Positions 55,255-59,121 of a DNA stretch of 64,000 nt are shown piece by piece. Location of the stretch: the NCBI GenBank assembly GCA_002355455.1, contig AP017375.1, positions 4,765,640 to 4,829,639 on the forward strand. Direction: 5' to 3'. The position numbers and the translations under genes were made by a program. Source of the stretch: Stanieria sp. NIES-3757. GTDB taxonomy: Bacteria > Cyanobacteriota > Cyanobacteriia > Cyanobacteriales > Xenococcaceae. Position 1 is the stretch's first letter; every line of letters begins with the position of its first letter. The notes under the pieces are model-generated. The model was not told the DNA's origin and ran no database searches. It saw only the letters and a list, made by a program, of their open reading frames with translations.

Positions 55255-56148
55255 CTATGGTGTAGGTAACTTCTGCAAATAATCAAGAAAAGCTAATAAT
55301 TCCTCATCATTAAGATGGAGACGCGATTTTTTGCCATAATGGGCTTTGAGAAATTCTTTACCAATTTCTTTTGTCCAACCTAAACGCTTCATTTCTCGGT
55401 CAGTTTGATCGATGATTTCATTAAAGGTAATTTCTACTACTTCTGAATCATTGTCAGAAGATACGGGTGCAATTTGTTGCTCAAAATCATTATCTGCTGG
55501 TAAGTCATCATCAATGGTTGGTTCAAATTCAATTGCCGTTTCTTCAGTTGAACTGGTGTCAAACAAAGATGGAATACTGGGAGAAGATATTATAGTTTCA
55601 GAGTTTGGTAAGGACTCTTCAATTGGAAGGTTGATTGGATCGTAATCTTCTTGAAAATTTGTTGGCTCTTGAACTTCAATAACTGAATCAAAGGATTGAT
55701 AACCATTTTTTTGAGTTGGAGAAATATTTACTGAAGAGTTGACTTCGTTAGAGGCATCTTGAAGGCTGGCTTCTGACTCAACCGAAAAGGATGTTTGAGA
55801 TTTTTGTGGAGGAACTGCTTCAACTTCAACAGTTGCTTGTGGTTGATTGAATTGTTTTTCTAATTTTGCTTCAGTCTGAGAAGAAGTTACAGGTGGCTGA
55901 CTTTCTAATTGTAATTTTTGATTGTTAGTTTTTGTCGCTACATTTTTTTCCATCATTAAAGTAGCTAAAGCTCTTTCTCTAGCTCGATCCTCTGCCATTT
56001 CTACTGTTTGGGCAGCAGCTAGTCCAGTTGCTACAGTTTTTCCTGCTACTTTGACTGAAACTTTAACAATATAATTACCGTGGTCTATGGTTAATAATTT
56101 ACTAATCAAACTACCGTCGGGATAAAGATGGCGAAATTGGATTAACAT
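55255..56148 (-). CDS. Conserved protein with dsRBD/Rad52-like N-terminus and acidic linker
   Basis: In this 297-aa protein, residues 1-68 have YIVKVSVKVAGKTVATGLAA followed by AEDRARERALATLM, resembling a dsRBD- or Rad52/DdrA-like nucleic-acid-binding fold. Residues 70-230 are an acidic, Ser/Gln/Thr-rich, probably disordered linker. Residues 235-297 form a conserved helical tail with RLGWTKEIGKEFLKAHYGKK and LNDEELLAFLDYLQ, seen in other cyanobacterial proteins. A role in nucleic-acid handling is likely but unproven. It is divergent from the Zam-like gene across 720 bp. Confidence 0.6.
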   Translation of the reverse strand: MLIQFRHLYPDGSLISKLLTIDHGNYIVKVSVKVAGKTVATGLAAAQTVEMAEDRARERALATLMMEKNVATKTNNQKLQLESQPPVTSSQTEAKLEKQFNQPQATVEVEAVPPQKSQTSFSVESEASLQDASNEVNSSVNISPTQKNGYQSFDSVIEVQEPTNFQEDYDPINLPIEESLPNSETIISSPSIPSLFDTSSTEETAIEFEPTIDDDLPADNDFEQQIAPVSSDNDSEVVEITFNEIIDQTDREMKRLGWTKEIGKEFLKAHYGKKSRLHLNDEELLAFLDYLQKLPTP

Positions 56149-56344
56149 CAGCTTGTTTTAATCAATCTTATTGGTACTAATTTACTATTAAACTCTTAAT
56201 TTTTAAAACAAATTTGCCAATAGACAGAGAAAATTTAAAATATATACAGGCTAGTTACAAGCTAACTCACTATTTTTGTTACTAGCATCTTCAAGAACTT
56301 AATTTCTCGTTAAGAGAAACCGTGAGTTAGATAGCTACAGCGAA

Positions 56345-56860
56345 CAACTAAACTGGATAAGTTGACTTGATGCACACTCTGAGATAAACCACTCTTGTAT
56401 TTTAGCTGCGACTTCGCGCTACAGCTAAATTTGATTAAGAGAATTATCATCAGTGTTATCCAGCAAAGTTGTAAGTCCTGTCAGCCGATTAACCAAGTGA
56501 ACTTAGTTCCGTCGTAAAAGGCTGGGTACTGTTCACTAACGGTCACCGTAGAAGCGTTAAATGTAAAGAGTCGTCTCTGTCTTTCAACGCTGGAAATGGC
56601 TTTATGGGACTATTTCCTTGTTAGAGCCACAGCCTTTCGGCTGATCAACTTCGTAACCTCTTGAGGGGCTGTCCCTGCTGTCGCACTACGTGTTTGTAAC
56701 TACAACACAGATCGGCATAGCAGAGTTGCATCTCAAGACGAAAGGTAGGAAACCTATCTGATGACCGTTAAACAGAGTAGCACAGCCGTGCCAGCACTGA
56801 AACTATTGGTGCTTTTCTCTTTACATCTTAGTGGAATCAACAACTTCAACTGAAAAGGAA
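56345..56860 (+). ncRNA. Highly structured leader RNA candidate upstream of the Zam-like gene
   Basis: The 720-bp gap before the Zam-like start codon holds unusually dense complementary segments: 56353-56360 with 56456-56463, 56401-56408 with 56422-56429, 56496-56502 with 56531-56537, 56537-56545 with 56762-56770 (9 bp), 56553-56558 with 56586-56591, 56592-56597 with 56612-56617, 56630-56634 with 56639-56643, 56659-56665 with 56732-56738, 56744-56749 with 56753-56758, and 56793-56797 with 56809-56813. A further perfect 10-bp match (56561-56570 with 56817-56826) crosses the 9-bp stem, forming a pseudoknot or an alternative fold. The G+C content is higher than in other gaps. No known family (RNase P, tmRNA, 6S, group I/II intron, common riboswitch) was recognised. 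Confidence 0.65.
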
Positions 56861-56868
56861 CACTATAC

Positions 56869-59121
56869 ATGGATTTTTCAATCGCTACAATTCTGGCTCA
56901 ATTTGTAGATGACAAATTAGTCGCAGCAAAGAATCTAGAAAAAAAACTAGGTTGTGAGGATGACGAAAGTATTCAAAAATTACAAATTGCTTTGGATGCT
57001 TTAGAAAAAATTGGTATTTTGACCAAAGAAAGGGGGAAATATCGTCGGTTATACGAAAATGATGTAGTAGAAGCTAAACTACGTTGTTCGAGTAAAGGAT
57101 TTTGTTTTGCCATTCAAGATGAAGAAAATGCGGATGATATCTATGTCAGGGAAAGTCATCTAAGTAATGCTTGGAATGGCGATCGCGTCTTGATTAAAAT
57201 TATTAAGGAGGGTAGTCGTCGTCGCTCTCCTGAAGGAGAAGTAAAATTAATTTTAGAAAGAGCTAATCCTTCTTTACTAGCTACAGTTAATGCCGTTGAC
57301 AGTGGTTATCGTGCGACACCCCTTGACGATCGCTTATTATTTGAATTAGACCTGAAGCAAAATGGACAAAATTTGGCTGAAGCTGTTGAACATCTAGTTC
57401 ATGTCTCAGTTTTGCGTTATCCGATCGGGCAATATCCTCCTTTAGGAAAAGTTACCAAAATTTTAGGTAGTGATGCGGAGGAAGCTTCAGATGTTGATAT
57501 TGTTTCTTGTAAACATGATTTAGTGCAAAATTTTGCCGAGTCAGCACTCAAAGCAGCAGCATCTTTACCAAGCAGAGTTCCTGCTGCTGAAATCAAAAAA
57601 AGATTAGATTTACGAGATAAATTAACCATTGCGATCGAACCAGAAACGGAAGAGGAAAATCCTTGGATTGAAAATGCTTTAACTTTAGAAAAAACGGAAA
57701 ATGATAATTGGCAATTAGGAATTCATATTGCTGATGTTGCTCATTATATCGACCAGGATTCTCCTTTAGACCGCGCAGGGAAAAAACGGGTTACGGCAAT
57801 TAACCTACGGAAAAAGATCTTACCCATGCTTCCCGAACAGGTAGCTAAAATATGTTCTTTAATCCCAGGAAAAGATCGTTTAACTATTTCTGTTTTAATT
57901 GAAATTAATCGCCAGGGGGAAATAGTCGAATTTTCGATTAAACCTTCAGTAGTTAAAGTTGACCATAAATTTACTTATAGTCAGGTACAGTCGTTCTTAG
58001 CAGAAAAAGCTGAAGATGATGAAAAATCAGCAGCTTTAGGCAATCTTCTCAACGAACTATTTTTTAATGTCAGTCCTTTAGTTAAAGCACAACGATTACA
58101 AAGAGGAGGGTTTGAAATTGCCACTCCTGAAATTCACAATTTATATAAAGATGAAGGCAGATTAGGAGTAATCTTAAATTCTTCTACTTTACCTGTTCGT
58201 TCTTTATTTACGGAATTAATGGTGTTGGTAGGTAGATTAGTTGCTCAACATCTCCAAGCTTTACAAGTACCAGCTATTTATTGTAGTCAACCAGAACCAG
58301 ATGTGGATGAGTTGGAAGATTTACTAAAACTAGGCAGCAATTTGCAACTACGCTTGGATTTAGATGCGGAAGGAGATGTCACGCCCCAAGATTATCAAGC
58401 TTTAACTCAAGAATTTAGTAAGTCTCCCGAAGCAATGGTACTCAACTACATTCTGCAAGGAACATTTAAACCAGTTAAATATAGTACCAAACCTGCTGCT
58501 CATTTTGGTCTGGCTTATAGTGATGGTTATACTCACTGCATTTCTCCTGGACAAAGATATGTGGATCTGTTGATCCAAAGAATTCTCAAAATTGTTTTTG
58601 AATACGGACGCGATCGCCGTCATAGTCGGGCTAAAACTGGTGTAGATTTATTTAGCAGCAGCAGCCATGGTGAAATCAACTGGAATGTTTTACCACCTCA
58701 GATGCAGGAAGAAATGGAAACTGAATTACACGCCGTAATTCCCCATCTCAATGACCGCGAAAAACTAGCTGAAGATGCAGAAAAAGACTTAGACGGTTTG
58801 AAAAAAGCCGAAAAAATGAAAGAACGGACTGGTAAGATTTTTGAAGGATTAATTACGGGCGTACAATCCTACGGCTTTTTTGTGGAAATCGAAGATTTAT
58901 TAGTAGAAGGATTAGTTCACGTTAGTTCCCTCAAAGATGATTGGTACGAATATCGTTCTCGTCACAGTTGTTTAGTCGGCAGAAAAAACCGCATTGCTTA
59001 TCGTTTAGGCGATCGCGTAGAAGTAGAGGTGAAAAGTGTTGATTATTATCGTCAGCAAATCGATTTAGTTACTGTTGGTGGTGGTTCAACTGCCAGTAAT
59101 GCCGATTTGGAAGAAGAATAA
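56869..59121 (+). CDS. RNase II/R-family (RNB) protein, Zam-like, probable pseudo-exonuclease
   Basis: This 750-aa protein has an N-terminal winged-helix/cold-shock region (1-130), an RNB domain (about 245-600) and a C-terminal S1 domain (657-735). The fold markers LGIHIADVAHYIDQDSPLDR and YTHCISPGQRYVDL are present. The catalytic Asp cluster DxxxxxDxDD is replaced by IEPETEEENPWIENALTLE (255-274), and the RNA-contacting SPIRRY motif is SPGQRY (559-564). The enzyme is probably inactive, as suspected for cyanobacterial Zam-type proteins; RNA binding may remain. It starts at ATG 56869 after AAAAGGAA. Confidence 0.8.
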   Translation: MDFSIATILAQFVDDKLVAAKNLEKKLGCEDDESIQKLQIALDALEKIGILTKERGKYRRLYENDVVEAKLRCSSKGFCFAIQDEENADDIYVRESHLSNAWNGDRVLIKIIKEGSRRRSPEGEVKLILERANPSLLATVNAVDSGYRATPLDDRLLFELDLKQNGQNLAEAVEHLVHVSVLRYPIGQYPPLGKVTKILGSDAEEASDVDIVSCKHDLVQNFAESALKAAASLPSRVPAAEIKKRLDLRDKLTIAIEPETEEENPWIENALTLEKTENDNWQLGIHIADVAHYIDQDSPLDRAGKKRVTAINLRKKILPMLPEQVAKICSLIPGKDRLTISVLIEINRQGEIVEFSIKPSVVKVDHKFTYSQVQSFLAEKAEDDEKSAALGNLLNELFFNVSPLVKAQRLQRGGFEIATPEIHNLYKDEGRLGVILNSSTLPVRSLFTELMVLVGRLVAQHLQALQVPAIYCSQPEPDVDELEDLLKLGSNLQLRLDLDAEGDVTPQDYQALTQEFSKSPEAMVLNYILQGTFKPVKYSTKPAAHFGLAYSDGYTHCISPGQRYVDLLIQRILKIVFEYGRDRRHSRAKTGVDLFSSSSHGEINWNVLPPQMQEEMETELHAVIPHLNDREKLAEDAEKDLDGLKKAEKMKERTGKIFEGLITGVQSYGFFVEIEDLLVEGLVHVSSLKDDWYEYRSRHSCLVGRKNRIAYRLGDRVEVEVKSVDYYRQQIDLVTVGGGSTASNADLEEE

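Follow-up and report, generated by a model that had tools for sequence, protein, structure and literature searches.

The zam locus and its predicted leader

The window analyzed here is a 64,000-nt stretch of the genome of Stanieria sp. NIES-3757 (two contigs, 5.46 Mb in all). The part of interest contains a gene for an slr1353 family protein and, divergent from it, a gene whose product has OB_RNB, CSD2, RNB, and S1 domains (Table 1). Because of this domain set, and because its scores reached the curated cut-off of neither RNase R nor the 3'-5' exoribonuclease superfamily, the gene at 56869 to 59121 fits an identification as zam. Each of 100 relatives had a match to the product, as did all 27 genomes of the family to which the strain belongs. 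The available text of PMC9145284 and PMC10989914 proposes Zam as an RNase E partner and links it to photosynthesis; the former also reports the product as redox regulated. According to the accessible part of the review PMC10989914, the Anabaena protein (Alr1240) binds RNase E and enhances RNase E cleavage. The same review credits Alr1240 also with RNase II-like degradation, whereas PMC9145284, in the text available, says that Zam proteins lack a canonical active site, so the nuclease status of Zam is disputed between these two sources.

Table 1 Features of the zam locus in the window (positions are those of the window).
Feature	Position	Strand	Basis or remark
slr1353 family protein, divergent neighbor of zam	55255-56148	-	NCBIfam NF058667, 161.9 bits (cut-off, 100)
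Sigma-70 type promoter, TTGCCA-16-TAAAAT	56214-56241	+	Motif scan; predicted transcript start near 56248
Predicted zam 5' leader, ~620 nt	56249-56868	+	Span between promoter and ATG at 56869
Outer 5' stem, 5' arm TAGTTA	56252-56257	+	Pairs with 56332-56337; duplex prediction, alignment columns
P1, 5' arm CTAACTCAC	56262-56270	+	Pairs with 56322-56330; arm coevolution, pair counts, model matches
Small hairpin within P1, TTTCTC/GAGAAA	56303-56319	+	In both species of the genus; consensus fold
P1, 3' arm GTGAGTTAG	56322-56330	+	As for P1 5' arm
Outer 5' stem, 3' arm TAGCTA	56332-56337	+	Duplex prediction
P3, 5' arm CTGGATAA	56353-56360	+	Pairs with 56456-56463; sister species keeps 7 of 8 pairs
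P4 hairpin, TAGCTGCGA (TTTAGCTG/CAGCTAAA)	56401-56429	+	Motif TAGCTGYRA
P3, 3' arm TTATCCAG	56456-56463	+	As for P3 5' arm
Genus-specific 9-bp stem, 5' arm	56537-56545	+	Pairs with 56762-56770
Claimed pseudoknot, 5' arm ATGTAAAGAG	56561-56570	+	Within hairpin 56554-56590; exact pairing, crossing unsupported
Genus-specific hairpin, CAGCC/GGCTG	56630-56643	+	Consensus fold; sister alignment
Genus-specific 9-bp stem, 3' arm	56762-56770	+	Exact stem list; sister alignment
Terminator-like hairpin, then TTTCTCTTTA (U-rich)	56793-56813	+	Tail overlaps pseudoknot 3' arm
Claimed pseudoknot, 3' arm CTCTTTACAT	56817-56826	+	Sister species: four of ten bases deleted, one changed
zam	56869-59121	+	OB_RNB, CSD2, RNB, S1 domains; 750 aa; Pfam

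A promoter motif was found at -655 relative to zam. It recurs in 23 of the 27 family genomes as TTGCCA (21 genomes) or TTGCTA (2 genomes) followed by TAAAAT or TACAAT, with a spacing of exactly 16 nt in all 23, at 290 to 788 nt before zam. Families f24 and f12 have a conserved block containing TAAAATA ~490 to 845 nt upstream of zam, and blocks at similar distal places occur in f15 and f21, where they were chosen by eye out of several candidates. Given these promoter-like blocks in further families, the long zam leader is probably old. With the motif at 56214 to 56241, a zam transcript start downstream of 56800 is unlikely, and the region at 56345 to 56860, which the initial annotation had described as a structured regulatory leader or a separate noncoding RNA, is most likely the larger part of a predicted, untranslated leader of ~620 nt. 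The description of a long structured leader ahead of a Zam-type RNB gene is supported. The leader is present in one copy in its own genome, on which ground a repeat or mobile element was rejected as its identity.

The lengths of zam leaders vary widely among relatives. For three genomes (G017, G022, and G023) the leader start was set with a looser anchor, and one (G013) was excluded because the promoter was not found and a group II intron lies in the leader, leaving 26 of 27 leaders for analysis. The intron of G013 (L019:1031-1108; Rfam RF00029, 55 bits) is preceded by an open reading frame of ~245 aa. Of the frames of at least 12 aa whose stop lies in the leader, both species of the genus have a TTG frame at leader position 146 in common (40 and 28 aa); it has no clear ribosome site.

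Conservation and coevolution of the 5' stem

The conserved core of the leader is a 5'-terminal stem at 56252 to 56337, all of which lies upstream of 56345 to 56860, and the best conserved helix is P1. We examined coevolution of this stem by pairing segment 3 to 32 of the predicted transcript with segment 58 to 102 and exchanging arms among leaders. In 10 leaders chosen from 14 leaders outside genus g8, the pairing sum was -152.1 with own partners versus -97.5 (standard deviation, 11.2) for exchanged arms, a value reached in 0 of 20,000 permutations. With one leader per genus (7 genera), own arms again paired better (P = 0.00015). The own arm beat all exchanges in G014, G004, G006, and G011; in G010, G002, and G012, its pairing was only slightly better than that of exchanged arms. 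A reversed-arm control also gave low values (P = 0.007 and 0.003), and base composition therefore contributes to the stem signal. Among 11 leaders of other families, order-wide arm permutation gave P values of 0.012, 0.010, and 0.23, a weak signal that varies with the segment chosen, and three leaders (G049, G086, and G062) paired worse with their own arms than with those of others.

Segments of the 5' stem showed no coevolution in genus g8 (9 of 12 leaders tested; P = 0.31). In 13 g8 leaders, strong conservation marks the final ~60 nt ahead of zam, which include a pyrimidine-rich element resembling TTCTTCGC, whereas no 5' stem was detected.

Alignments of the stem gave a similar picture. The 5' stem was first chosen by eye in three families. 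Trimming and selection of the seed alignments were also done by eye, a procedure that favors the structure. Alignment A7 (10 sequences from three families) leaves out G002, in which the stem was unclear, and G086, G037, and G009, which aligned poorly or in the wrong register; the seed has no members of families f24, f18, or f33. In A7, 83.6% of cells were paired, compared to 28 to 45% when the arms were slid and 80.1% in shuffles, 1 of 500 of which was as high. Cells with two-sided change numbered 8 versus 3.1 in shuffles (0 of 500), and 4 pairs had two-sided change versus 2.4, a count reached in 45 of 500 shuffles, although related sequences may exceed shuffles in tests of this kind without any structure. 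Further pair types in A7 (7 versus 8.2) were not in excess over shuffles. A model-fitted alignment, A9 (15 sequences, without G009), had 83.4% of cells paired and 10 two-sided cells versus 4.0; a further alignment, A10, omits G255, which carries an insertion. When f15 and f21 were taken alone (9 sequences), the pairs persisted (81% versus 24 to 50% when slid), and covariation was no higher than in shuffles (0.174 versus 0.177). Judged by these comparisons, the leader appears to have a conserved secondary structure that is backed by coordinated change in the 5' stem only, and this support fails in f15 plus f21 alone and in g8.

We then searched 388 genomes of the order with covariance models. 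Search R1 matched 19 genomes at E values up to 0.05, 16 of them before zam (the exceptions being G304, G373, and G043). Ten of the 19 belong to its own seed and two others (G009 and G016) are closely related to the seed; G166, G190, G211, and G237, from outside both, have the match in the gap between slr1353 and zam. Search R2 matched 26 genomes at E values up to 0.1, and 17 matches stand before zam: the best 16 (E values up to 7.9e-7) and that in G255. Fourteen of these 17 are seed members and G009 is near-identical to one; G005, also in the seed, was missed. Only G251 and G255 were new, both in the slr1353-zam gap. The nine weaker R2 matches away from zam (G019, G033, G043, G044, G091, G210, G257, G304, and G373), the best of which is in G304 (E = 9e-5), were taken as false. 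Thus, all six genomes beyond the hand-made seed and its near relatives (the four from R1 and the two from R2) have the element before zam, and all are of family f15; as the seed already contained this family, the models did not extend the range of families. In its own genome the element gave one match (E = 5.9e-11), the next standing at E = 4.5. R1 found little beyond its own seed and near relatives in sets of 90 and 43 loci, and of the three genomes that R2 matched among 388 sampled from the class, two were in its seed and the third match was false. At G304:C173:3369-3540 (L186 and L192), two R1 matches adjoin each other (E = 0.005 each), one of which is the match that reaches 9e-5 with R2, and no zam gene is nearby. 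What genome comparison shows is the promoter motif and how far it lies from zam, together with a conserved 5' stem and its position ahead of zam.

A conserved part at the 5' end of a transcript whose remainder changes fast would also be expected of a small RNA, either separate or derived from the 5' untranslated region, whose 5' domain, freed when transcription terminates early or the RNA is cleaved, acts in trans, with zam expressed by read-through. Premature ends are described for the Synechocystis rne leader in the accessible portion of PMC10989929. However, all strong matches, i.e., those in the 16 best R2 genomes, stand before zam, a placement unnecessary for a free RNA (seed members make up most of these genomes), and no terminator was found right after the 5' domain; the sole candidate on the + strand, at 56793, is not kept in the sister species. 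We regard such a small RNA as unlikely. We hold it similarly improbable that the region is an ordinary spacer, that is, a long divergent intergenic region in which the stems are functionless inverted repeats and selection acts only on the promoters and the ribosome site. The fast turnover of the middle, the large differences in leader length, the lack of a conserved stem in g8, and the folding of both strands better than shuffles (mean z, -2.3 for the + strand and -1.8 for the - strand in the 26 leaders) are all in keeping with a spacer. Against it, the 5' stem coevolves while seven other segment pairs of the leader gave P values of 0.12 to 0.87 in both sets, the model matches outside the seed stand before zam, and the P4 motif occurs on one strand only: of 113 stretches upstream of zam, 16 carry TAGCTGYRA on the coding strand, where the search covered 900 nt before zam, and 0 carry it on the other strand, where the whole stretches were covered (a few genomes are represented twice). 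A contig titled Candidatus Gracilibacteria (L090) likewise carries a cyanobacterial zam gene with this motif upstream; the assembly is probably mislabeled or mixed.

The remainder of the leader and the crossing pairing

What can be recognized from genus to genus is limited to the promoter, the first ~100 nt, the TAGCTGYRA hairpin, and the last ~60 nt of the leader. The two species of the genus share 71% identical leader columns, with identity poorest in the middle, and much of 56465 to 56815 is specific to the genus. In the sister species, the 9-bp stem at 56537 to 56545 and 56762 to 56770 pairs at 8 of 9 positions, two of them as G-U, and the hairpin at 56630 to 56643 reads CAACT/GGTTG, so that one G-C pair has become A-U through changes on both sides and one C-G pair has become U-G. 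Two terminator-like hairpins were found on both strands together, versus 0.4 expected. The stem of the one in Table 1 ends ~55 nt before zam, and the hairpin lies mostly within a 20-nt stretch that is missing from the sister species.

Perfect Watson-Crick stems of at least 7 bp between 56248 and 56868 numbered 16, compared to a shuffle mean of 12.4 (8 of 60 shuffles reached 16). The counts were 9 versus 3.3 for stems of at least 8 bp and 4 versus 0.9 for those of at least 9 bp, each reached in 0 of 60 shuffles. The stretch is therefore richer in stems of at least 8 bp than expected, but the interval delimited by the initial annotation misses the best conserved helix, which lies before 56345. 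Its nested layout of ten stems was not confirmed; some of the 16 stems overlap in their bases and are mutually exclusive. Folding of 56345 to 56868 gave z = -2.9 on the + strand (1 of 100 shuffles as good) and z = -3.5 on the - strand (0 of 100), so the folding z names no strand.

For consensus folding, energies were compared with those of 60 shuffled alignments in which dinucleotides were not kept. On the + strand, groups g5 and g3 gave -6.1 and -5.6, and their coding controls gave -0.8 and 0.2. A two-member g3 subset gave -3.8, g5 plus g2 gave -3.6, and six further groups ranged from -0.6 to -2.8; values for the - strand ran from -0.2 to -3.8. Three of ten coding controls were near or below -2.3, the lowest (-3.6) being that of the window's own genus, for which the leaders of the two species gave -2.6 and the other strand gave -3.8. 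Since folding in this genus was no better than that of its coding control, the evidence for structure in the middle, 56465 to 56815, is weak.

The exact complementarity of 56561 to 56570 with 56817 to 56826, which crosses the likewise exact 9-bp stem at 56537 to 56545 and 56762 to 56770, was confirmed. It had been read as a pseudoknot that sets up two exclusive folds; in such a two-state switch, the pairing would change access to the start codon. The hairpin at 56554 to 56590, which bears the 5' arm, is identical in the sister species. The 3' arm in that species, however, has lost four bases and has one changed, a pairing of at least 10 bp occurs in 12 of 60 shuffles and is thus not notable, and, in 20 leaders, coevolution was not seen between the element next to the start codon and the remaining leader sequence (P = 0.29). 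Of the covariation looked for in relatives, that in the 5' stem was found, while the crossing pairing is not kept. We reject the pseudoknot as a conserved feature; the pairing looks like chance, although it could form in this one strain, and a switch built on it is very improbable.

We recovered no match at gathering thresholds when the whole window was searched against Rfam 15, and none up to an E value of 5 for 56150 to 56900, in agreement with the statement that no known RNA class was recognized; on the loci of 20 relatives, the same search returned only a tRNA (L088) and the group II intron (L019) and nothing for the leader. A metabolite- or redox-sensing riboswitch controlling zam would suit a long leader ahead of a gene with a reportedly redox-regulated product (PMC9145284, in the part available), but the leaders showed no compact unpaired core of high conservation, the loops differ between families, and Rfam gave no match, making this reading highly unlikely as well.

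A possible role in zam mRNA stability

We therefore return to a leader that acts in cis on zam, which we consider probable. Transcription from the conserved promoter would yield the ~620-nt leader, whose first ~100 nt would form a closed stem, with no more than a few bases ahead of it. Such a terminal position is compatible with protection from 5'-end-dependent decay: the stem might limit attack of this kind by RNase E (and RNase J) and so set the life of zam mRNA, while the variable, partly single-stranded remainder of the leader might offer RNase E sites. If the leader does act in cis, we give such a stability mechanism an even chance. Zam might in turn act back negatively on its own mRNA through RNase E, an idea drawn by analogy from the reported properties of the Anabaena orthologue; this feedback by Zam and RNase E is tentative, and we lean against it. 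The explanation as a whole, comprising a cis-acting leader whose 5' stem governs zam mRNA stability with feedback through RNase E, seems to us about equally likely to be right or wrong. More speculatively, the element may define an unnamed Cyanobacteriales RNA family, spanning at least three families, that sits at the 5' end of zam mRNA and reads RNase E/Zam capacity, such that the decay machine would set the level of its own cofactor; we think this improbable.

Precedents exist for the parts of this proposal. The E. coli ompA mRNA has a 5'-terminal stabilizing stem-loop whose function has been measured. As in ompA, the stem of the zam leader is close to the mRNA 5' end; unlike that of ompA, it is known here from position and conservation alone. 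The enterobacterial rne 5' leader (Rfam rne5) is structured and is used for autoregulation of an RNase gene, and the zam region differs from it in giving no Rfam match. Among cyanobacteria, the closest parallel is the rne 5' untranslated region of Synechocystis PCC 6803, which RNase E cleaves, according to the available text of PMC10989929. It is likewise a long leader of an RNA decay gene with proposed RNase E feedback, but it belongs to another gene, and a U-rich cleavage site matters there (PMC10989929, same text), whereas the conserved part of the zam leader, compared by description, is a 5'-terminal stem.

In the literature, to the extent that its text was available, we found no description of a zam leader or of the control of zam itself, and the main text of PMC9145284 contains no word beginning with "UTR." With a leader element kept across genera, there is a search model and a specific site at which the question of feedback control of RNA decay in cyanobacteria can be addressed. 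In Nostoc PCC 7120, a nitrogen-regulated antisense unit, TU00785, lies opposite alr1240-alr1241-alr1242, i.e., the zam transcript unit, as given in the accessible part of PMC10287535.
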